From the IMG/VR virus record IMGVR_UViG_3300025313_000025, positions 1 to 49,536 of that record: a stretch of 49,536 nt of DNA; one strand, written 5' to 3'. This document shows, piece by piece, positions 10,514 through 33,571 of the stretch. The position numbers and the translations under genes are program-made. Every line of letters begins with the position of its first letter. The first letter of the stretch is position 1. Source of the stretch: a virus. The notes beneath the pieces are model-generated. The model saw nothing but the letters and a program-made list of their open reading frames with translations. It had not been told where the DNA came from and did no database searches.

Positions 10514-10562
10514 ACGGAACGCGCCTCTCGTTTCCTGCTAAGTGACCGAGGCGCGTTTCCGT
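10514..10562 (+). terminator. Strong inverted repeat before terminase
   Basis: ACGGAACGCGCCTC (10514-10527) pairs with GAGGCGCGTTTCCGT (10548-10562) with one bulge and a 20-base loop. It follows the ParB-like gene and ends just before the TAGGAGG of the terminase small subunit. There is no U-tract after it. It may end the ParB transcript or control entry into the late genes. A smaller hairpin (GTCGC/GCGAC) lies at 10470-10488. Confidence 0.5.
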
Positions 10563-10577
10563 GTCTAGGAGGACATC

Positions 10578-11141
10578 GTGGCCAAGAAGTACGATCATCA
10601 GGATCTCGAGCGTCAGTTCGTGCATGGCACGATGTCGATGCGACAACTCTGCCGTGATAACGGCATCAGCACATGGTCGACCGTGAGCGTCTATGCCAAG
10701 CGCAACGGTTGGCTGGAGAAGCGCGAAGAGTTCCAGCAGAAGCTGAGGGAAGCCGAGTCGCGTGTCGTGGTCGAGAACAGGGCTGCGAAACTGGCCAGCG
10801 CGTTAGACGACGCCATCATGGTCGCCAATCAAGCGGTCTATACCTTTCTCGACTCGCTCAAGGATCGCTGGGTCAGCCTACCGGGCGCTAGTGAGCCAGT
10901 CCTCATCCCAGCACAGCAGATCGCCGCTGGTGACTTCGTCAAGATCCTCGAGAAGATCATGCTCCTCAACGGACAAGTCAGCAGTCGCGAAGCGCATCTC
11001 TCCATGGAGGTGAGCGCCGACCAGCTCACCATGGAGATGCTTCGTGACCTCGCCGACGCAGCCCGACAAGCAGGGGCTGACACCCGCCCAGTCATATCAA
11101 GTCCTCTCCCTCGCCTTGAGGGGGCTCGCTCGGTCAACTGA
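10578..11141 (+). CDS. terS: Terminase small subunit
   Basis: GTG start with TAGGAGG upstream. 187 residues. The N-terminus (SMRQLCRDNGISTWSTVSVY) is a helix-turn-helix typical of TerS DNA-binding domains that recognise the packaging site. A charged helical middle would serve oligomerisation. Its position directly before TerL supports the call. TerS and TerL overlap by 98 bases if the TerL GTG is right. Confidence 0.8.
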   Translation: MAKKYDHQDLERQFVHGTMSMRQLCRDNGISTWSTVSVYAKRNGWLEKREEFQQKLREAESRVVVENRAAKLASALDDAIMVANQAVYTFLDSLKDRWVSLPGASEPVLIPAQQIAAGDFVKILEKIMLLNGQVSSREAHLSMEVSADQLTMEMLRDLADAARQAGADTRPVISSPLPRLEGARSVN

Positions 11142-12477
11142 CGGTATCGAGGGGGTCACGGCGTACGGGGAGTACGTCTTCGGGTACTCGGCGGCGAAGC
11201 ATCATCGAGAGATGCTCGAGTTCATCTTCGAGGCCATGTACGCACGCCAGAACGCGGTCGTGCTCGAACCCCGAGGAGCAGCCAAGACGACATGGGGCAA
11301 CACGATCTCAGCCTCATGGCTGACGTCGATGTTCCCTGATCTCCGTATCGGCCTCATCAGCAACACGGCGACCCAGGCTCTTGACTTCTCCAGGGCCATC
11401 CGCTTCACGCTCGAGTCCAACGAGAAGCACCGTGAGATCTTCGGGGATTGCGTCAGTCCCTCGAAGTGGCGCGACATGGAGTGGCTCCACAGGCAGTCGA
11501 AGTGGCATGGCAGCAAGGACGTCACGCTCTACGCCGCTGGTTGCGGTGGCGCCATCATCAGCAAGCGCTTCGACATCATCCTCTGCGATGACATCCTCGA
11601 CGAGGAGAACACCCTCACCCCTGAGGCTCGCGAGAAGGTCGAGAAGTGGTTCTTCCAGACCCTCCTACCGTGCCTGACACCGGATGGCGTGGTCATCATC
11701 CTGGGCACACGCTGGGCCGAGGATGATCTGTACGAGAAACTCATCACCCCCGTGGAGAAGGGCGGACGAGGCTGGCGAAGCAAGGTCGTGAGCGCGCTTC
11801 GTCCGACTGGGAAGGATGATGAGGTCGAGAGCTATTGGGAGGAGCACTGGTCACGGAAGACGTTGCTCGCGAAGAGGGTGGAGCTGGGGACGCCGCTCTT
11901 CATGTGCGCGTATCAGAACGACATCAGCGGGCTCATGGAGGGTTCGGTCTTTCAGTCACGCCACTTCCAGTATTACGACGCCTTGCCCGAAGGCGCCTAC
12001 ACCACCGTCATGGGAGTCGACCTCGCGAGCTCGGAGAAGGAACGCGCCGATTACACCGCTCGCGTGACCACCTCGCGTGACCAGCAGGGGAACTACTACG
12101 TCAGGGCCTACTATCAGGATAGGCGCGAGACTGGACATGCGAAGTTCATCAGTGATGGTTACAACGCCTTCAATCCCGGCTTGGTGGTGGTAGAGAGCCA
12201 GCAGTTCCAGTCGACCCTCGTGCAGGAGGTGATGCGGGATTACCCGCACATCCCCATCGAAGGGAAGGCCTCTGACACTGACAAGACGACGCGAGCCAGG
12301 GCTGTTGCCGCCAAGTACGAGGCGCACAAGGTGTTCCATCACCGTTCGCTGGAGAAGTCTGACTTCGAGACCCAGCTCAAGACCTTCCCGAAGGGCCATG
12401 ACGACCTCGTCGATGCCCTCGGGTTCAGCATGGACTTCGGTGGCGGTGGGTTCGTCTTCGGGTCACTGCGGAGGTGA
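11044..12477 (+). CDS. terL: Terminase large subunit
   Basis: The packaging motor and headful nuclease. The ATPase has Walker A at residues ~75-82 (EPRGAAKTT), Walker B with the catalytic acid at ~178-184 (IILCDD) and a coupling motif IILGTRW at ~219. The RNase H-like nuclease has acidic residues in GVDLASS (~324), VVVESQQF (~381) and HDDLVDAL (~452). Length 477 is normal. GTG 11044 is supported by a GGAG 8 bases upstream but overlaps TerS; a later start cannot be excluded. Confidence 0.95.
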   Translation: MTSPTQPDKQGLTPAQSYQVLSLALRGLARSTDGIEGVTAYGEYVFGYSAAKHHREMLEFIFEAMYARQNAVVLEPRGAAKTTWGNTISASWLTSMFPDLRIGLISNTATQALDFSRAIRFTLESNEKHREIFGDCVSPSKWRDMEWLHRQSKWHGSKDVTLYAAGCGGAIISKRFDIILCDDILDEENTLTPEAREKVEKWFFQTLLPCLTPDGVVIILGTRWAEDDLYEKLITPVEKGGRGWRSKVVSALRPTGKDDEVESYWEEHWSRKTLLAKRVELGTPLFMCAYQNDISGLMEGSVFQSRHFQYYDALPEGAYTTVMGVDLASSEKERADYTARVTTSRDQQGNYYVRAYYQDRRETGHAKFISDGYNAFNPGLVVVESQQFQSTLVQEVMRDYPHIPIEGKASDTDKTTRARAVAAKYEAHKVFHHRSLEKSDFETQLKTFPKGHDDLVDALGFSMDFGGGGFVFGSLRR

Positions 12478-12478
12478 C

Positions 12479-12670
12479 ATGAAGGACATCGAGTTCCGGG
12501 ATGGCTGGCGCACCGTGCCCGACCATGTCGAGGTCATGGTGATCGGCCTCGACACCTACAAGATGACGTACGAAGAGGCCATCAAAGCCGCCGAGAAGCG
12601 GCTTCTCGATGAGCACATGTACAAGGCTCAGCAGGAGCTCCTGCGGTCCCACTTCGAGGCCTCCAGATGA
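12479..12670 (+). CDS. Small hypothetical protein, 63 aa
   Basis: ATG preceded by GGAGG inside the end of TerL. 63 residues, beta then helical (YKMTYEEAIKAAEKRLLDEH). Its stop overlaps the portal ATG. The role between TerL and portal is unknown. Confidence 0.75.
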   Translation: MKDIEFRDGWRTVPDHVEVMVIGLDTYKMTYEEAIKAAEKRLLDEHMYKAQQELLRSHFEASR

Positions 12671-14079
12671 TGACCCTCTTCGCGCGCGATCAATCGGGCG
12701 CCGAGATGCGCATGCGATTGCGTGGAGTCGGTACCGCCATCCAGAACGCCATGGTGACGAGCCCCAAGCGCGTCCCCAACGCACCGACAGCGACGCTCAC
12801 GACGCAGGACCGTGGACGTGTCGGGCTGCCCAACGCAAAGCTCTTCCGCCACTGGGCCGAACATGGGGAGTGGGTGCGCGCGGCCCTCAACATCCGTCGC
12901 GACCAGGTCGCCCAGGCCGAGTGGATCATCGACGCCGAGGACCACAAGAAGCCATGGAGTCGCTCGGCTGCCGAGGAGATCACGTGGCTCCTAAAAGAAC
13001 CCAACCCGGTCGACGAGATGTGGACGACCTTCATCCAGCAGGTCATCGAGGACACCCTCGTCATCGATGCCGGGTCGATCGAGAAGGAACGTACCCTCCG
13101 AGGTGACATCGCTTATCTCCATGTCGTTGACGGATCGACGATGCGTGTCAACAAGTACTGGGATGGCGACCCCGAAGAGCCACGCTACTTCTGGTATCCC
13201 GACTACCAGGAACGAGCCCAGTTCAAGAACGAAGACTTCATCTACATGCGTGCCAACCCGATGAGCTATCGGGTGGTCGGATTGGCCCCGCTCGAGACGT
13301 TGCGCATCGTCGTGGATGCCGAACTCACGGGCCAGAGCTACAACGTGCGCCAGATGAAGTCACCGGCTCCGGACGGCATCCTCGATCTTGGCGAGCAGGT
13401 GCGCCCCGACCAGGTCGAAGACTTCAAACGGTATTGGGATGCCGAAGTGGCCGGCAGGGGAGCCATGGCTTTCCTGGGCGGCACGAAAGGCAGCAAGTTC
13501 GTGCCCTTCCGGATGGGCAACCGGGAGATGCAGTTCCTGGAGTTCCAGATGTACCTCGCGCGCAAGACGGCAGCGGTCTTCGGGATGTCACTCCAGGACC
13601 TCGGTATCCCGCTCGATACCAACCGCGCTACGGCCTCTGTCACCAACGCGAACACCGAGGACCGGGGCCTGCGTCCGCTCCTCGATCTCACGGCTCGCTA
13701 CGTCACGAAGGGCGTCGTCCATGACAAGTCCTTCGGTGGTGCTCGCAACAACCTCATCTTCAAGTTCGCAGCACTGAACCTGAAGGAATCGATCACTCGT
13801 GCCCAACGTAACCGTTACGCGCTTGCAGGGATGTCCTGGATGGTCGTCGACGAAGCGCGGCGTGAGGATGGCCGACCGCCCCTTGGTGGGACGCTCGGCT
13901 CGTCCCTCCTGGCGATGGGTCCTTCTGGACCCGTCCTGCTCATGGAGGGTGAAGTACCGACCGCTCGAGAGGTCCTCGAGTCGAAGGCCAGCAAGCCGGC
14001 GCTCCCGAGTGGAAGCTCGTCCTCAGGATGGATGAGCGACCCCCTCCTCGAGGATGACGCGGGCGACATGATGGAGTAA
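12667..14079 (+). CDS. Portal protein
   Basis: 470 residues. It forms the dodecameric ring at the head vertex for DNA passage. The segments WIIDAEDHKKPWSRSAAEEI, FIQQVIEDTLVIDAGSIEKE, LHVVDGSTMRV, FIYMRANPMSYRVVGLAPLE and a C-terminal MQFLEFQMYLARKTAAVFGM fit the HK97/SPP1-type portal clip, wing and stem. ATGATG start overlaps the upstream stop; the second ATG is also possible. A Ser/Pro-rich tail precedes an acidic C-terminus. Confidence 0.93.
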   Translation: MMTLFARDQSGAEMRMRLRGVGTAIQNAMVTSPKRVPNAPTATLTTQDRGRVGLPNAKLFRHWAEHGEWVRAALNIRRDQVAQAEWIIDAEDHKKPWSRSAAEEITWLLKEPNPVDEMWTTFIQQVIEDTLVIDAGSIEKERTLRGDIAYLHVVDGSTMRVNKYWDGDPEEPRYFWYPDYQERAQFKNEDFIYMRANPMSYRVVGLAPLETLRIVVDAELTGQSYNVRQMKSPAPDGILDLGEQVRPDQVEDFKRYWDAEVAGRGAMAFLGGTKGSKFVPFRMGNREMQFLEFQMYLARKTAAVFGMSLQDLGIPLDTNRATASVTNANTEDRGLRPLLDLTARYVTKGVVHDKSFGGARNNLIFKFAALNLKESITRAQRNRYALAGMSWMVVDEARREDGRPPLGGTLGSSLLAMGPSGPVLLMEGEVPTAREVLESKASKPALPSGSSSSGWMSDPLLEDDAGDMME

Positions 14080-14085
14080 CCAGAG

Positions 14086-14574
14086 ATGGTCGCGACACTC
14101 ACGCTCCGTGTGTACACGGGAACCAACGCCGGGACCGAATCAGCGACGGTCACCGGTATCGACATGATCAGTGCCGACAACGCCACGAACTCGCTTGCCA
14201 ACAGGCAGGCGAACCCGATCAGCGTCGGCACCAAGAGCTATGACAAGTGGCTCAAGCTCAAGCTCAGCACCGCACCCGACAACGGCGTCACGAACTTCCT
14301 GGTCTGGGGTGATGGCGCGGTCGGCTCATCGACGACCCTCATGGTCGGCGCCAACCAGATCACAGGCGTCACGCCTGTGGCCACGACCTCCTCCGTCGCG
14401 ACCACGACGTTCGCTAACTACACCTCGGGCAACAAGCTGGCATGGGATGCTTCGTCGTACTCGGCTACCGATGCCACGACCCGCTACCTCGTGTTCCAGC
14501 TCGTCGTGGATGCCGATGCCAACCCGGGCAACTGGGGGCAGGAGACCGTCAGCTACTCGTTCGATGAGACCTAA
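14086..14574 (+). CDS. Beta-rich virion protein, possibly decoration
   Basis: 162 residues, Thr/Ser/Ala-rich beta pattern throughout (MVATLTLRVYTGTNAGTESA ... YLVFQLVVDADANPGNWGQE). It looks like a jelly-roll or Ig-like domain. Its place directly after portal with GGAGTAACC upstream suggests a structural role such as head decoration or neck fibre. No specific family recognised. Confidence 0.7.
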   Translation: MVATLTLRVYTGTNAGTESATVTGIDMISADNATNSLANRQANPISVGTKSYDKWLKLKLSTAPDNGVTNFLVWGDGAVGSSTTLMVGANQITGVTPVATTSSVATTTFANYTSGNKLAWDASSYSATDATTRYLVFQLVVDADANPGNWGQETVSYSFDET

Positions 14575-14579
14575 GGGTA

Positions 14580-14835
14580 GCAAAACACTAACTCTTGCCT
14601 TGTAAGGTAGGACCACTGCCTCCGAGGCAAGGCGCGCTGCGGCCGTGATGCGAACATGGGTGGAGTAGACTCTTGGTGCGGCCGAAGCAGAACTGACTGC
14701 TCAGACCATCGAGGGCGTGGGGCCCCATCAGGCACCACCGACTCCCTCGTACCCGAGACTAGCGGGTAGCTGACGAGCATGTCCGGACGGGCTGGGAGTT
14801 GATACCCCGGAGACACGTCCCGGTCGCACAACATC
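14580..14835 (+). ncRNA. Structured untranslated region, RNA candidate
   Basis: About 255 bases with no gene but dense pairing potential. Pairs include GCCTTG with CAAGGC near 14600-14635, two CGGCCG elements, AGCAG/CTGCT, CGAGGG with CCCTCG enclosing GGGGCCCC, TACCCG/CGGGTA with a 7-base loop, and GGACG with CGTCC near 14787-14820. It ends in a strong intrinsic terminator. It could be a leader controlling the glycan genes, a processed small RNA, or a structured 3' UTR. It matches no riboswitch class I can recall. Confidence 0.5.
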
Positions 14836-14880
14836 AAACGTCCTCGTGGAGCCTCAGCCCCTCCACGGGGACGTTTCTTT
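14836..14880 (+). terminator. Strong intrinsic terminator before the glycan island
   Basis: AAACGTCC-T-CGTGGAG pairs with CTCCACG-G-GGACGTTT, a 15-bp stem with one internal mismatch, followed by CTTT. The next gene starts 19 bases beyond. It is the strongest terminator in the window. Confidence 0.85.
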
Positions 14881-14898
14881 GTGTCACAATCGTGCATC

Positions 14899-15567
14899 AT
14901 GTCGATGATCGTCATCTGCCCTTCCAGGGGGCGACCCATCAAGGCACGAGAGGCGTATGACGCCTTCGAGGCGACGAGATCGCTGGATGACACGAAGATG
15001 GTCTTCGTCGTCGATGCCGACGACGACACGTTCATCGGATACGTGAAGCAACAAGTCCCTGTCGCGACATACAAGCATGAGGGTGGCGGGATGGGGCCCC
15101 CGCTCAACGTCGCGTCCGCAGAGTACTCACAGCTTCACGACATCGTCGGCTTCGTCGGTGATGACCATCGCTTCCGGACACAGGCCTGGGATGCGGCCAT
15201 CACGAAGGCGCTCGAGACGCCAGGTTTCGCTTATGGCGATGATCGCATCCGTCACGACATCCCTTCACAGGTCTTCATCAGCAGCGGCATCGTCAGGACC
15301 CTCGGGTGGATGAGCCTGCCGGGCGCTAAGCATCTCTATCTCGACGATGCGTGGCGAGTCCTCGCGCAGGGCGTCGATCGGTACTTCTACTTACCGGATG
15401 TCGTCATCGAGCACTGCCATCCGATTGCCGGTACGGCCGAGATGGATGAGGGCTACGCACGTGTGAACGCGCACTCGATGTACCTGCATGACAGCCGAGT
15501 CTTCAACGAGTGGGTCTCATCTGGGAGAGCAGCCATGGACATCGAGACGATCAGGGCTGTCCTGTGA
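14899..15567 (+). CDS. Glycosyltransferase-like protein (GT-A fold)
   Basis: Begins MSMIVICPSRGRPIKAREAY; the strand plus CPSRGRP is typical of GT-A enzymes. FVVDADDDTF, FVGDDHRF and YLDDAW supply Asp clusters able to bind a metal-nucleotide sugar. 222 residues, short and single-domain. ATG 14899 is chosen; it has no ribosome site, and a possible -10 (CACAAT, 14885-14890) lies close upstream, so leaderless initiation is possible. First gene of the glycan island. Acceptor unknown. Confidence 0.7.
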   Translation: MSMIVICPSRGRPIKAREAYDAFEATRSLDDTKMVFVVDADDDTFIGYVKQQVPVATYKHEGGGMGPPLNVASAEYSQLHDIVGFVGDDHRFRTQAWDAAITKALETPGFAYGDDRIRHDIPSQVFISSGIVRTLGWMSLPGAKHLYLDDAWRVLAQGVDRYFYLPDVVIEHCHPIAGTAEMDEGYARVNAHSMYLHDSRVFNEWVSSGRAAMDIETIRAVL

Positions 15568-16148
15568 GGCAGCGGACCGGAAACTCCCCCGGCTTCGACT
15601 ATCAGGTCGAGCGCCACAACAGCGCCTGGTGCGATCACATCGCCAGGACAAACGTCACTGCCGGCCTCATCGCCTGGCTCAAGCCTGACTCACTCATCGA
15701 TCCGGCTTGTGGCGATGGCAGCATCGTCTGTCTTGCCGAGACCATCCAGCCCATCCCTAGGCTCGTGCTCTCTGATGTCAGCACCCCTAACATCTTCTCG
15801 CTCCAGGAGATGGCGGGCGAGATCGGTATCGATATCCGGTGCGAGAGCCTCCAAGAGGCGCTCGACCGCGAAGAATACTTCGATGTCGTCGTCCTCACAG
15901 AGATCCTCGAACACCTCGAATATCCAGATGATGTCCTCAAGCTAGCTCGCTTGAAGGCGGGCAGGTTGATAGCCTCGTCGCCAGAGATGCGGGTCGGACA
16001 AGTCGATACGAACCCTGAGCACCTCTGGATGTTCGATAGCGATGGGTACATGAAGATGCTCGTCGAGGCAGGTTGGGAACCGATCCAGAAGACCGGACTA
16101 GCTTTCCTACATCTCGAGTACGACTTCCAGATCTGGGTCTGTCGGTGA
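15564..16148 (+). CDS. SAM-dependent methyltransferase
   Basis: GTG overlaps the upstream stop. 194 residues. Motif I LIDPACGDGSIV binds SAM, and FDVVVLTEILEHLEYPDDVL followed by GRLIASSP matches the Methyltransf_23-like core. There is no target-recognition domain or NPPY, so DNA methylation is unlikely. Among sugar genes it most likely methylates a glycan or sugar precursor; inferred from context. Confidence 0.8.
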   Translation: MRQRTGNSPGFDYQVERHNSAWCDHIARTNVTAGLIAWLKPDSLIDPACGDGSIVCLAETIQPIPRLVLSDVSTPNIFSLQEMAGEIGIDIRCESLQEALDREEYFDVVVLTEILEHLEYPDDVLKLARLKAGRLIASSPEMRVGQVDTNPEHLWMFDSDGYMKMLVEAGWEPIQKTGLAFLHLEYDFQIWVCR

Positions 16149-16735
16149 GGCGTATCCAGGGATGGACCCCAGAACAGATAATCGCCTACAACCTCCGTTA
16201 CGACGGGACGGCCGTGTCGATCTTCGCCGACACCCAGACGGAGCGAGTGAACAAAGCGAGAGACATCATCAGGGGTCTCCTGCCACGCATCCCGGGGCCA
16301 GCTAGGATCATCGAGCCTGGATGCAGTGCGGGTGATATCAGCGGTTGGTTCACCCCTGCTCATATCGTCACGGGCTACGACGTCGTCCCTGCTGCCGTGG
16401 CCGCGACCCGGGAACGCTATCCGAAGATGGCGGTGATAGAGGCGAAGATCGAGGACATCGAGCCTGCCGAGTGCGACATCCTCGTCCTCTGCGAGTTCCT
16501 CGAACACATCCATGACCCCGTGGGACTCGTGAAGGCATGGATGCCGCTGGCGAAGTTTGTGATCATCGGTCATCCACTCGTGCGGGATGGCTGGGACCCG
16601 GAAGAAGGGCACATCTGGGCCTACTATCCGGAAGACTTCGAGGCATGGTTCTCGATGGGTGGGCACAGGCTCGGAGAGGCTTGGAACTTTCCGATGGGTT
16701 ATGAGATGGTCATCGGCTGGGGGGAGCGGGAGTGA
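16145..16735 (+). CDS. Second SAM-dependent methyltransferase
   Basis: GTG overlaps the previous stop (GTGA). 196 residues. RIIEPGCSAGDISGWF is motif I, GYDVVP the acidic strand and CDILVLCEFLEHIHDPVGLV motif IV. It resembles the preceding gene in layout but is divergent in sequence. The two may methylate different positions of one sugar. Confidence 0.8.
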   Translation: MRRIQGWTPEQIIAYNLRYDGTAVSIFADTQTERVNKARDIIRGLLPRIPGPARIIEPGCSAGDISGWFTPAHIVTGYDVVPAAVAATRERYPKMAVIEAKIEDIEPAECDILVLCEFLEHIHDPVGLVKAWMPLAKFVIIGHPLVRDGWDPEEGHIWAYYPEDFEAWFSMGGHRLGEAWNFPMGYEMVIGWGERE

Positions 16736-21206: not shown

Positions 21207-21226
21207 GCGCCCTGAAGCCCCGATCC

Positions 21227-21259
21227 CACGGGGTAGATCATAGGGGATCCCACCCCGTG
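21227..21259 (+). terminator. Hairpin after the glycosyltransferase operon
   Basis: CACGGGGT (21227-21234) pairs perfectly with ACCCCGTG (21252-21259); the loop holds GGGATCCC, which could fold further. It lies 20 bases after the 20745-21206 gene. Confidence 0.55.
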
Positions 21260-21279
21260 AAGAAGACACCTTTTGGACG

Positions 21280-21322
21280 GAAGACCCGGAGAGTCGCCCA
21301 TGAAGCGGCCCTCCGGGTCTTC
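21280..21322 (+). terminator. Second hairpin terminator
   Basis: GAAGACCCGGAG (21280-21291) pairs with CTCCGGGTCTTC (21311-21322), 12 perfect base pairs. Together with the hairpin at 21227-21259 it separates the sugar genes from the repeat-protein genes. No U-tract follows. Confidence 0.65.
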
Positions 21323-21360
21323 ATGTGTCCAACGCACCACGACTGGCACATGGCTGACTG

Positions 21361-21588
21361 ATGGCCGAGTTCGTCCGTATCGTGCAGGTCCGCTCCAACG
21401 GGACGGAGCGGCGCATCCGTGACATCCCCATCGCCAGCCTGACCGATTCGCAGGTCGAGCGCGCCGAGGCCTACGCCGAGGCGCGGGCTACATGGGATGC
21501 CGGCCAGCATATCCGCGTCTACACGTCCAGCAACGAGACCATCAGCTCGGGCGATCTCGTCTGGGACTCTGACATCGACTACGGCTGA
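21361..21588 (+). CDS. Small hypothetical protein, 75 aa
   Basis: 75 residues (MAEFVRIVQVRSNGTERRIR ...). It has a strand, a helix and a C-terminal DLVWDSDIDYG. Its stop overlaps the ATG of the giant repeat protein (TGATG), so it is probably made with that protein and could be a chaperone or partner. There is no clear ribosome site. Family unknown. Confidence 0.65.
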   Translation: MAEFVRIVQVRSNGTERRIRDIPIASLTDSQVERAEAYAEARATWDAGQHIRVYTSSNETISSGDLVWDSDIDYG

Positions 21589-24500
21589 TGGCTGCGCCGG
21601 TCTACCTAGACAGAAGTAGTGGCGCCACTGATGCCGGTGGTGCGTGGACCGCTACCTGTCACGCCCCCGGTGCGGCGGGCCGCATCGTCATCCTGCAAGT
21701 CCTCCAGGATGGCACGACGGATGGCGCGGTCACCTTCACCAGCGCCACCAACATCGAGAACCTCGCTGGCACGGATAACGCCTGGACCTACATCGGCGCC
21801 TTCGATGTGGGTGACAGCAACGAGGCCATCCAGCATCTTTGGATCGGCCGCTCGCTCTCCACCAGCGCCCCGACGTTCACGGGCGGCAACAGCACCTCGG
21901 AAGACCTGTATTGGCGCTTCTACGAGTTCACCGATGTCTCGACCGGCACGACGATCGAGACCGTCATCGAGAACGCCACGGCGGGCGCCACGGTCAACAG
22001 CAAGGGCACGAGTGCTACGGCCGCCGATGCCAGCGTCCAGACACTTGGGGCGGATCGGCTCGTCCTCAATTTCTTGGCCATCAACGACGATAACGCAGCG
22101 GCCCGCTTCACGGGTCAGTCCGGCGGGCGATGGTGGCACCAGCTCGGTGGCTATGCCGAGAGTTCCGGCACTGATGGTGCTATCTACCTGCAGGCGTCCT
22201 ATCTATGTGACGCCTTCGAGCTCCTAGGGCTGTCACAGGATGAGGAGCTCTTCGGGACCACGGCATCGGAGCGCCTGGCCCAGCCCTTCACGCCGTCCGG
22301 GGCCGTGACCGTCGCTAGGGGCTTCGTCTATCTACAGAAGTTCGGCTCTCCTGCTGATGACGTGGTGGTCGAGATCCAGTCCGATAGCAGCGGCGTGCCC
22401 TCGGGGACCGTCCTTGGCTCGGCCACGATCCCCAACGCCTCCATATCGACCAGCATCACCCTGTTCAGCGTCGCTCTCTCGGCATCGCTGACCGGCGGCA
22501 CCCCCTATTGGGTCGTCCTGCGGCGGACGGGTTCGCTGGACGCGTCGAACTACTTCCGCTGTTCGCGGGGCGCCATCGGGGCCGAGGCGGGACCCTATGT
22601 CTATACCAGCGGCAGTTGGTCCGCCATCGGGACCACCAATCCGATGCTGGTCGCCGTGGGGAGCGCCTCGGCTGCGGGCACCATCGACGGCGGTACGGGC
22701 TCGATCACCGACTCCGATGCCTGGGGCGTCGTGGGCTTCGCGCTCATCGGCACGACGGCGGGCGGCACCACCGTCCCCGGTTCTCTCACTGCGAACGCCG
22801 TCATCAAGAAGACCAGGTCTTTGTCGTTCACAGTCAACGCTGTACTCAAGGCTGGTAGCGGCACCAAGACCCTCACGGCGGACGCTGCGATTAAGCGAGC
22901 GCGGTCTGGGTCGTTCCTCTCGGATGCTGTCATCAAGAGAGCGGCACCGACATCGTTCACGTCGGCTGCGGTCCTGAAAAAGACCCAGGCGAGTTCGTTC
23001 ACGGTCGACGCGATCATCAAGAAGACTAGCTCTACCTCGTTCTTGATCGATGCCATCACCAAGAGGACGCAGTCGGTATCGCTTGGCACCGACGCCATCA
23101 TCAAGGGGACTCAGACTGGGTCCCTCTCTGGCGATGCCGTCTTCAGGAAGACACAGACTGCGTCCTTCACTGTCGATGCGTTCATAAGTGCGCTGAGGAT
23201 CGCCTCGTTCAGCGCGGACGCGGTCATCGAAAAGACCGCCATCGCGTCACTGCTGGTCGATGCTGTCGCTCGCAAGACCCAGGCAGCCTCACTCACCATC
23301 GATGCCTGGTTGTCGCTGACGCGGTCTGGTTCCCTCACTGTCGATGCTTCGCTGCAGAAGACAAGTGTCGGGTCCTTCTCTGTCGACGCCATCTGCAAGA
23401 GGACCTGGGTCTTTAGCGATGTGCAAGCGCGTACCTCAGCGTTGGGTGAGATCACGCTCGGCGACACGACTCTTGGGGATGTCGTGGTGGAGGCCGCCGG
23501 GTTCACGGTCGATGCCGTGATCATCGCGACGATCCCTGGCTCTCTCACTGCAGATGCGGTCATCCGAAGAACCATCGCTGGTTCGTTCACGATCGATGCC
23601 TGGGTCGCGGGCATCAACGTCGAGGGCTTCGCTGTCGACGCCATCATCCTGACGACGAGGTCTGACTCGACGGTCGTCGATGCTGTCTTGCGCAAGACAC
23701 AAGTCGGGGCGTTCACGGCTGATGCATGCCTGAAGCGGACGGTCACATCGAGCTTCACGCTAGATGCGATCGTCAAGAAGGTCCAGTCAGCGTCCTTCTT
23801 GATCGACGCGGTAGCCATGGCTTCGCGAGCAGGGTCGCTCACCGTCGACGCCTATCTCCTGGCTGTTCGGCAAGGATCGCTGACGGTCGATGCGATCGCC
23901 CGAGCCACTATCGGTGGTGCGTTCACGGTCGACGCTTTCATCGAGGGAGTGAACGTCGCCGCGTTCAGCGTCGACGCGACCATCCTGGCGGCTAGGACAG
24001 GCTCTGCGACGGTCGATGCAGTCGTGCGCAGGACACAGGCTGGGTCTTTCTCCATCGATGCCTACATCCTTGCGACGCGCACAGACTCGTTCGCCGCCGA
24101 TGCCATCGTCCTGAGGGCACAGGCAGGCTCGTTCAGTATCGATGCTTGGGTCGAGGGGACCGGGATCGCGGCCTTCACGATCGACGCGATCATCGCCGCG
24201 ACCAGGGCGGCATCAGCCAGCATCGATGCGATCGTCACGAGGACGGCCCTTGCGACTCTCACGGTCGATGCGTGGCTGCAGCGCACATCTTCAGCCAGCC
24301 TCTCCATCGATGCGGTCATCCGTGCTGCGGGGACTGACTCGGCGACCATCGATGCGATCCTGCTGGCCACGCGCAGCGGGTCGTTCTCCATCGATGCGGT
24401 CATCTCTGCGACGACCACGGCGTCGTTCGGCACGGACGCCATCCTCGCGAGGACCCAAACCGGGTCCTTCCTCATCGACGCGGACCTGCATGCAGTTCAA

Positions 24501-25895
24501 GCAGCGTCGTTCAGCGTCGATGCCTACCTTCTTGCGACCCGGACGGCTTCGTTCACGACTGATGCCATCGTTCGCAAGACGCAGGTCGGGGCGTTCACGG
24601 TCGATGCCTTCATCGAGGGAGAGGGTGTCGGGGCGTTCTCCATCGATGCCGTCATATCGAAGACGACCCCAGATGGGTTCCTGGTCGATGCGATCATATC
24701 GAAGGGGCAGGCCGATACCTTCGATGTAGATGCCATCGTCGAGCGGACAGCGGTCAGCGTCATCACCATCGACGCTGTCATCGCCAAGAGCGCGACGGCT
24801 TCGTTCACCGCAGACGCCGTCCTCTTCGAGACGAACACGGCTTCGTTCACGATCGATGCATGGCTTCTTCTGCCGACCATCACCGACTCCTTCGTCATCG
24901 ACGCGATCGTCAGACGGTCGTCGTCCGCGTCGTTCAGTGTCAACGCTTGGATCGAAGGAGCAGGTGTCGGGGCGTTCACTATCGATGCGGTCATCGCGGC
25001 CGGCAGGACGGGTTCCTTCACGATCGATGCTCTCGCGAGTGTCCCGCGTGCTGGCTCGTTCACGACGGACGCGATCATCCGTGCTGTCGTGTTCGGTGCG
25101 CTATCGGTCGATGCTATCTTGCTCACGACGAGAGATGCATCACTCTCAGCCGACGCTGTCATGGCAGGGCAACAGACCGCCTCGTTCGCGGTCGATGCCT
25201 ACATCGTCCGCACGATCGTTGACTCGTTCAGCACAGATGCTGTACTTCTCAGCACGAGTTCTGCTACCGTAACGCTCAACGCGGTCATCGAAGCGACCGC
25301 TGGCGATGCGTTCACAGTGGACGCGTTCATCGCGAAGACAGGTGTCGCAGCCTTCGCCGTAGATGCGGTGATCGGTGCAACCCGAACGGTCGGGTTCAGT
25401 GCAGACGCCATCTTGGCGACCCAAGAGACCGGGTCGTTCTCGATCGATGCCTCGATCTCACCGCTCCTGCCGGACCATCTCGATTGGATAGACACGACCC
25501 GGTATCTCGATTGGGCGGATACGACGCGGTTCCTAGACTGGGCCGACTCGACGCGGTTCCTAGACTGGACAAGGAGCGGTTACATGGGCTCGTTCATCAC
25601 GGGTGACACCGGCCCGGACCTCACAGGCACCATCCATGCTCTCGGTGATGCCACCGACGTTGAAACGTTGACTGGGGCGACGGTCCGCTTCCAGATGCGC
25701 AAGGACAACGACAAGTCGTATCGAGTCAACGGATCCGCCACCATCATCAACGCGACATCCGGGACCGTGCGCTACCAGTGGTCAGTGAACGATCTCAACC
25801 TGAAGGGCTCCTACAAGGGTCGCTGGGAAGTCACCTATCCGGGCGGCAGGGTCGTCACCACCGCTGCGAAGGACATCGTCGTCGACCGTCAGTAG
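21588..25895 (+). CDS. Giant 14-residue-repeat virion protein, 1435 aa
   Basis: Three parts. Residues 1-~395 are beta-rich, with a section resembling phage-surface or choice-of-anchor domains (LAQPFTPSGAVTVARGFVYL, then VVLRRTGSLD). Residues ~398-1296 are about 62 tandem copies of a 14-residue unit, consensus GSFTVDAVIKKTQT, with D-A nearly invariant, broken once after unit 15 by ~28 residues containing LGEITLGDTTLGD. Residues ~1300-1328 have four LDW repeats at 9-residue spacing. Residues ~1332-1435 (FITGDTGPDLTGTIH, GATVRFQMRK, GRWEVTYPGG) resemble the BppU N-terminal domain of baseplate upper proteins. It is likely an elongated beta-solenoid-like appendage, rich in Ser/Thr and surrounded by glycosyltransferase genes. 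Virion location is inferred. Confidence 0.8.
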   Translation: MAAPVYLDRSSGATDAGGAWTATCHAPGAAGRIVILQVLQDGTTDGAVTFTSATNIENLAGTDNAWTYIGAFDVGDSNEAIQHLWIGRSLSTSAPTFTGGNSTSEDLYWRFYEFTDVSTGTTIETVIENATAGATVNSKGTSATAADASVQTLGADRLVLNFLAINDDNAAARFTGQSGGRWWHQLGGYAESSGTDGAIYLQASYLCDAFELLGLSQDEELFGTTASERLAQPFTPSGAVTVARGFVYLQKFGSPADDVVVEIQSDSSGVPSGTVLGSATIPNASISTSITLFSVALSASLTGGTPYWVVLRRTGSLDASNYFRCSRGAIGAEAGPYVYTSGSWSAIGTTNPMLVAVGSASAAGTIDGGTGSITDSDAWGVVGFALIGTTAGGTTVPGSLTANAVIKKTRSLSFTVNAVLKAGSGTKTLTADAAIKRARSGSFLSDAVIKRAAPTSFTSAAVLKKTQASSFTVDAIIKKTSSTSFLIDAITKRTQSVSLGTDAIIKGTQTGSLSGDAVFRKTQTASFTVDAFISALRIASFSADAVIEKTAIASLLVDAVARKTQAASLTIDAWLSLTRSGSLTVDASLQKTSVGSFSVDAICKRTWVFSDVQARTSALGEITLGDTTLGDVVVEAAGFTVDAVIIATIPGSLTADAVIRRTIAGSFTIDAWVAGINVEGFAVDAIILTTRSDSTVVDAVLRKTQVGAFTADACLKRTVTSSFTLDAIVKKVQSASFLIDAVAMASRAGSLTVDAYLLAVRQGSLTVDAIARATIGGAFTVDAFIEGVNVAAFSVDATILAARTGSATVDAVVRRTQAGSFSIDAYILATRTDSFAADAIVLRAQAGSFSIDAWVEGTGIAAFTIDAIIAATRAASASIDAIVTRTALATLTVDAWLQRTSSASLSIDAVIRAAGTDSATIDAILLATRSGSFSIDAVISATTTASFGTDAILARTQTGSFLIDADLHAVQAASFSVDAYLLATRTASFTTDAIVRKTQVGAFTVDAFIEGEGVGAFSIDAVISKTTPDGFLVDAIISKGQADTFDVDAIVERTAVSVITIDAVIAKSATASFTADAVLFETNTASFTIDAWLLLPTITDSFVIDAIVRRSSSASFSVNAWIEGAGVGAFTIDAVIAAGRTGSFTIDALASVPRAGSFTTDAIIRAVVFGALSVDAILLTTRDASLSADAVMAGQQTASFAVDAYIVRTIVDSFSTDAVLLSTSSATVTLNAVIEATAGDAFTVDAFIAKTGVAAFAVDAVIGATRTVGFSADAILATQETGSFSIDASISPLLPDHLDWIDTTRYLDWADTTRFLDWADSTRFLDWTRSGYMGSFITGDTGPDLTGTIHALGDATDVETLTGATVRFQMRKDNDKSYRVNGSATIINATSGTVRYQWSVNDLNLKGSYKGRWEVTYPGGRVVTTAAKDIVVDRQ
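22779..25474 (+). repeat. About 62 tandem 42-base units coding GSFTVDAVIKKTQT-type repeats
   Basis: Hand segmentation gives 62 units of 14 codons. Common residues are Ser2, Phe/Leu3, Asp6 and Ala7, with hydrophobic residues at 5, 8 and 9 and Lys/Arg/Thr at 10-12. Units differ in codons but often share long stretches such as TTCACGGTCGATGC. The only break is at about 23410-23500. Confidence 0.9.
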
Positions 25896-33515: not shown

Positions 33516-33523
33516 CCTCTAGG

Positions 33524-33558
33524 GAGGGGGGCGGTCAACGATCACACCCGCCCCCCTC
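33524..33558 (+). terminator. Strong terminator after the tail tube gene
   Basis: GAGGGGGGCGG (33524-33534) pairs perfectly with CCGCCCCCCTC (33548-33558). No U-tract follows. It would set high tube expression against lower downstream expression. Confidence 0.8.
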
Positions 33559-33571
33559 TCATGAGGGAGAC

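Follow-up and report, generated by a model that had tools for sequence, protein, structure and literature searches.

Phage morons are extra genes that lie between conserved genes and are flanked by a promoter and a terminator (PMC3029335). The window, by which we mean the whole 49,536-base IMG/VR virus record analyzed here, has a comparable layout, with extra genes placed between otherwise neighboring structural genes and terminator-like hairpins at 14837 and 21280. Unlike a moron, it carries a multi-gene glycosylation cassette instead of one gene, with a noncoding block before the first hairpin. The terminase large subunit (11044-12477) and portal (12667-14079) are followed, after a spacer, by glycosyltransferases (GTs), methyltransferases and a sugar epimerase, with the prohead protease and the major capsid protein further on; given this gene order, the head-gene block encloses the glycan island. 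The terminase-portal unit ends with a gene (14086-14574, + strand) for a conserved 162-aa protein to which family searches assigned no function, and the stop codon of this gene (14572-14574) and the GT start codon at 14899 bound a spacer of 324 nt (14575-14898). The first GT of the island (14899-15567, + strand; phrog_14945, PHROG match with an E-value of 3.5e-41; ATG at 14899 or 14905) has its nearest named relatives in Streptomyces phages, at 37-38% identity. In many relatives a GT likewise follows the 162-aa gene and in others different gene types do.

The 162-aa protein shows 63-72% identity in 9 diverged relatives (about 70% in L007, L012, L014 and L016). Searches assigned it to neither a Pfam nor a PHROG family and returned no match among named phages, and its AlphaFold model (pLDDT 56) was too poor for searching. 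Its gene (14086-14574; A2, L061-L140) adjoins the portal gene, occurs in 143 IMG/VR stretches, and specifies a C-terminus with an invariant DET, usually YDET.

The first-pass annotation had described about 255 untranslated bases and then a 15-bp terminator with CTTT before the first GT, and this observation was confirmed. The stem arms lie at 14837-14851 and 14861-14875 (+ strand), forming 15 bp (16 with A14836-U14876) around a loop of 9 nt, and are followed by the T-rich tail TTTCTTTGTG (UUUCUUU; 14876-14882). Folded alone, the hairpin reaches -26.8 kcal/mol (z -5.9); a consensus terminator scan, whose loop limit is 8 nt, reported no terminator. At the same place, the sister phage L004 has the arms ACACCCCCCGTGGAG/CTCCACGGGGGGTGT, in which 4 of the 15 pairs are changed on both sides relative to the window (compensatory pairs) and one on one side, with none broken, at about 8.5% fourfold-site divergence in the flanking genes. 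In other words, the covariation that had been proposed as a check is present in the terminator stem, and it is not found in the upstream RNA. The more distant relatives L007, L012, L014 and L016 carry 14-16-bp hairpins of unrelated sequence at this position. Across nonredundant relatives, a hairpin of -24 kcal/mol or lower occurs within 200 nt of the stop codon in 24 of 57 (42%), versus 8 of 204 control segments (4%) drawn at random from the same loci (Fisher p 5e-12), a count in which some hairpins lie in downstream coding sequence. The tail is more variable: TTTCTTTGTG in the window corresponds to TTTCGTTGTG in L004, the U-tract is almost absent in L007, L012 and L014, and canonical U-tracts follow the hairpins of L090, L117, L128 and L133. 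Judged by sequence comparison, the hairpin is a genuine conserved element, and its annotation as an intrinsic-type terminator bordering the GT island gains support from its z-score, its stem covariation and its enrichment in relatives. The terminator itself is ordinary, a boundary mark in many of these phages.

The relatives also indicate how GT expression might begin beyond this boundary. In L007, L012 and L014 the hairpin is directly followed by TGTACTATGTNCGNNATG, whose ATG is the GT start; a -10-like TACTAT lies 7 nt upstream of that ATG and there is no Shine-Dalgarno sequence, which suggests a leaderless restart after the terminator. Strong Shine-Dalgarno sequences precede the GT in several relatives without a hairpin at the junction, and L016 has both hairpin and Shine-Dalgarno. 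From these patterns we infer that one clade would combine a terminator with a leaderless restart, while the other would translate the GT from a continuing transcript. The GT of the window shows no anti-Shine-Dalgarno pairing and no Shine-Dalgarno, and because its best -10 match is only CACAAT, a leaderless promoter is weakly supported there. A consensus search of 13500-16500 returned no sigma-70-type promoter, although the promoters of the host may be of another type.

Taken together, we consider it likely that the locus combines a boundary terminator, a separately started GT cassette and an inserted RNA that does not act as a switch. The hairpin (14837-14875) would be an intrinsic terminator ending the late terminase/portal/162-aa transcript, and the GT island downstream would be a moron-like cassette whose expression starts separately, probably, in related phages, from the leaderless promoter with TACTAT 7 nt before the ATG. 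The RNA upstream of the hairpin, which we call module B, would be a lineage-specific noncoding insertion, released either as a small RNA of its own or as the 3'-terminal part of the terminated transcript; it would occupy the slot that holds tRNA genes in relatives, leaving the terminator unswitched. The interrupted U-tract of the window counts against strong intrinsic termination. Considering this interruption and the near absence of the U-tract in L007, L012 and L014, the hairpin may terminate weakly or with the help of a factor, or it may serve in processing or stabilization.

Several further elements were seen in passing. The hairpin at 21280-21322 (+ strand; -33.0 kcal/mol), at the 3' end of the GT/methyltransferase/epimerase run, resembles a terminator and closes the first part of the GT island, which fits the boundary reading; it is the second of two strong hairpins in 21207-21330, downstream of the 153-aa ORF with which the first GT run ends, and itself ends in CTCCGGGTCTTCATG. 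Two more terminator-like hairpins lie in intergenic gaps at 10515-10560 and 33522-33566; one precedes the likely terminase small subunit, and the other follows the likely major tail protein. A 1435-aa ORF (21588-25895) is built from imperfect repeats, numbering in the dozens, of a motif like SFTVDAIIKKTQ and belongs to no clear family. In L095 (L095:3511-3850), the 162-aa gene is followed by a consensus-like promoter (TTGACT, 17 nt, TAAGGT) and then by about 300 nt that are rich in hairpins, are apparently not translated and match no Rfam family.

Upstream of the hairpin, the whole stretch 14575-14882 folds with a z-score of -3.3, and it divides into two parts. Module A (14575-14675, + strand) starts with GGGTAGCAAAACACTAACT, which it shares with L007, is missing in L004, and has no significant fold (z -1.5). 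From the stop codon onward, 14572-14593 (TARGGGTAGCAMAACACTARCT) is identical at 19 of 22 positions in L007:5487-5508, with similar sequences in L016 and L099; in the gene before it, fourfold sites differ at 55% between the window and L007. Module B (14676-14831, + strand) is a 156-nt candidate structured RNA with a closed multibranch fold, consisting of a 9-bp closing stem and five arms (z -3.3), and L004 adopts the same fold. An equal or lower z-score was reached by 8 of 407 other 156-nt windows of the same genome (about 2%), so the fold is unusual, not unique. The two variants differ by seven transitions and one indel over the first 154 nt. Their 46-pair consensus, built from these two variants only, contains four one-sided, G-U-compatible changes and no two-sided ones. 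All four paired-site transitions keep pairing on the + strand (G-C to G-U or the reverse); since random transitions would do so about half the time, this amounts to weak support (p about 0.07). The substitution rate of module B is likewise marginally below that of fourfold sites (p 0.07). A long-range pairing between 14547-14559 and 14763-14775 was set aside, being partly lost in L004.

Searches for further copies or a known identity gave little. When IMG/VR was scanned for exact patterns taken from module B, only near-identical contigs of the window and L004, its one 95%-identical sister, were recovered; a covariance model run over 87 sources and 14 whole records found no distant homolog, and in the diverged relatives covered by the searches the GT was not preceded by module B. 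L141 was rejected as a homolog, since it matches by chance over 21 nt, in an AT-rich region that is unrelated. A blastn search of the spacer against named phages gave short chance matches only, and both a 162-aa profile scan and one exact module B pattern scan of species genomes were without a match. The annotated lack of a recognizable RNA class also stood, as no Rfam 15 family reached its gathering score, and at E<=10 there was one chance-level match, on the other strand; a tRNA search of the spacer found none. A group I intron, considered for GAGACTA, was rejected with no Rfam match. As for coding capacity, the open forward frame, read by eye, differs between the window and L004 by nonsynonymous changes, which argues against protein selection on it; in tblastn with the six frames, the 40 best rows were all the window's own copies, and a minus-strand ORF over the spacer had no family. 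As it is found only in the window phage and one close sister, module B is an unproven orphan RNA.

Two explanations of module B survive best, and on present evidence a neutral insertion and a small RNA cargo or 3' UTR-derived RNA are about equally likely. Under the first, which is a real possibility short of probable, the terminator is the only element that matters, and the GC-rich fold of module B belongs to neutral noncoding filler or to gene debris. Its absence from all relatives but L004, a conservation only marginally above that of synonymous sites and a z-score matched by about 2% of genome windows fit such an origin; against it, both variants keep the fold, every paired-site change is neutral to pairing, and no protein relic was found among the relatives' loci compared. 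The second explanation, which we regard as tentative, is that module B is a functional small noncoding RNA, with its own promoter or processed from the 3' UTR, carried as a hairpin-terminated phage cargo gene. The same fold and pairing data (z -3.3, an unchanged fold in L004 and four substitutions that preserve pairing, p about 0.07) count in its favor, as do the deficit of changes relative to fourfold sites (p 0.07) and the retention of module B in L004 although module A is missing there. Relatives furnish a precedent for cargo, with tRNA-Gln genes between the 162-aa gene and the GT at L070:1319-1394 and L074:3700-3774 (anticodons TTG and CTG), each flanked upstream by a similar hairpin and by the motif ACGCCAGCGGCAA and downstream by a terminator-like hairpin; their presence in this slot makes small RNA cargo or a 3' UTR-derived RNA plausible for module B. 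This explanation is weakened by the small number of variants found (two in IMG/VR, none in named phages, and none in species genomes, which were scanned with one exact pattern), by the lack of two-sided changes, by the 8 of 407 genome windows that fold as unusually, and by the empty promoter search. The more specific idea that module B is the first seen member of an uncharacterized five-arm phage RNA class of ~155 nt, released by the terminator in a slot that swaps RNA cargo, is doubtful at present.

The remaining alternatives concern the hairpin. Instead of terminating, it might stabilize a single mRNA or serve as an RNase processing site at the junction of that mRNA's portal and GT parts, which the poor U-tracts of several relatives would favor; the canonical U-tracts of L090, L117, L128 and L133 and the TTTCTTT tail of the window speak against this, and the GTs of the window's clade lack a Shine-Dalgarno, which makes a downstream translation start on a processed mRNA hard to explain. 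We therefore hold this alternative to be unlikely. Finally, the annotated layout of structured leader, terminator and ORF invites the reading of a terminator-type riboswitch or attenuator, in which read-through into the GT genes would depend on a ligand or protein sensed by the upstream RNA. In the window, a module B segment can indeed pair with the 5' arm of the terminator (-20.2 kcal/mol; 5 of 200 shuffles as good), but this pairing is lost in L004, where the arms changed and module B did not, and a second one, 14 nt long, between 14811-14824 and the 3' arm does not beat shuffled sequences. Forbidding the terminator pairs costs 27.9 kcal/mol in the window and 33.3 kcal/mol in L004 and leaves the fold of module B unchanged, so there is no competing antiterminator. 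With no conserved antiterminator pairing, no known aptamer class (Rfam 15, at gathering scores and at E<=10), an upstream RNA that directly follows the 162-aa gene and not a recognizable promoter, and relatives that keep the hairpin behind a 59-104 nt spacer with no leader fold, this part of the annotation is not supported and a switch is very improbable.

A boundary terminator with a separately started GT cassette and a non-switching insertion, the reading we prefer, would show a means by which an uncultured lineage of phages may keep an inserted glycosylation cassette apart from packaging and capsid transcription, at a variable slot where terminators, tRNA genes and an orphan RNA replace one another; if functional, module B would represent a new phage RNA class. 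Beyond the morons, two known systems offer a comparison. Like tRNA genes in phage late-gene spacers, module B occupies the slot after the 162-aa gene (as in L070 and L074) and is followed by a terminator-like hairpin, but the RNA of the window is not a tRNA. Like terminator-type riboswitches and attenuators, the window has a structured RNA, then an intrinsic terminator, then a gene; unlike them, it has no alternative antiterminator fold, and its relatives have the terminator without the leader.
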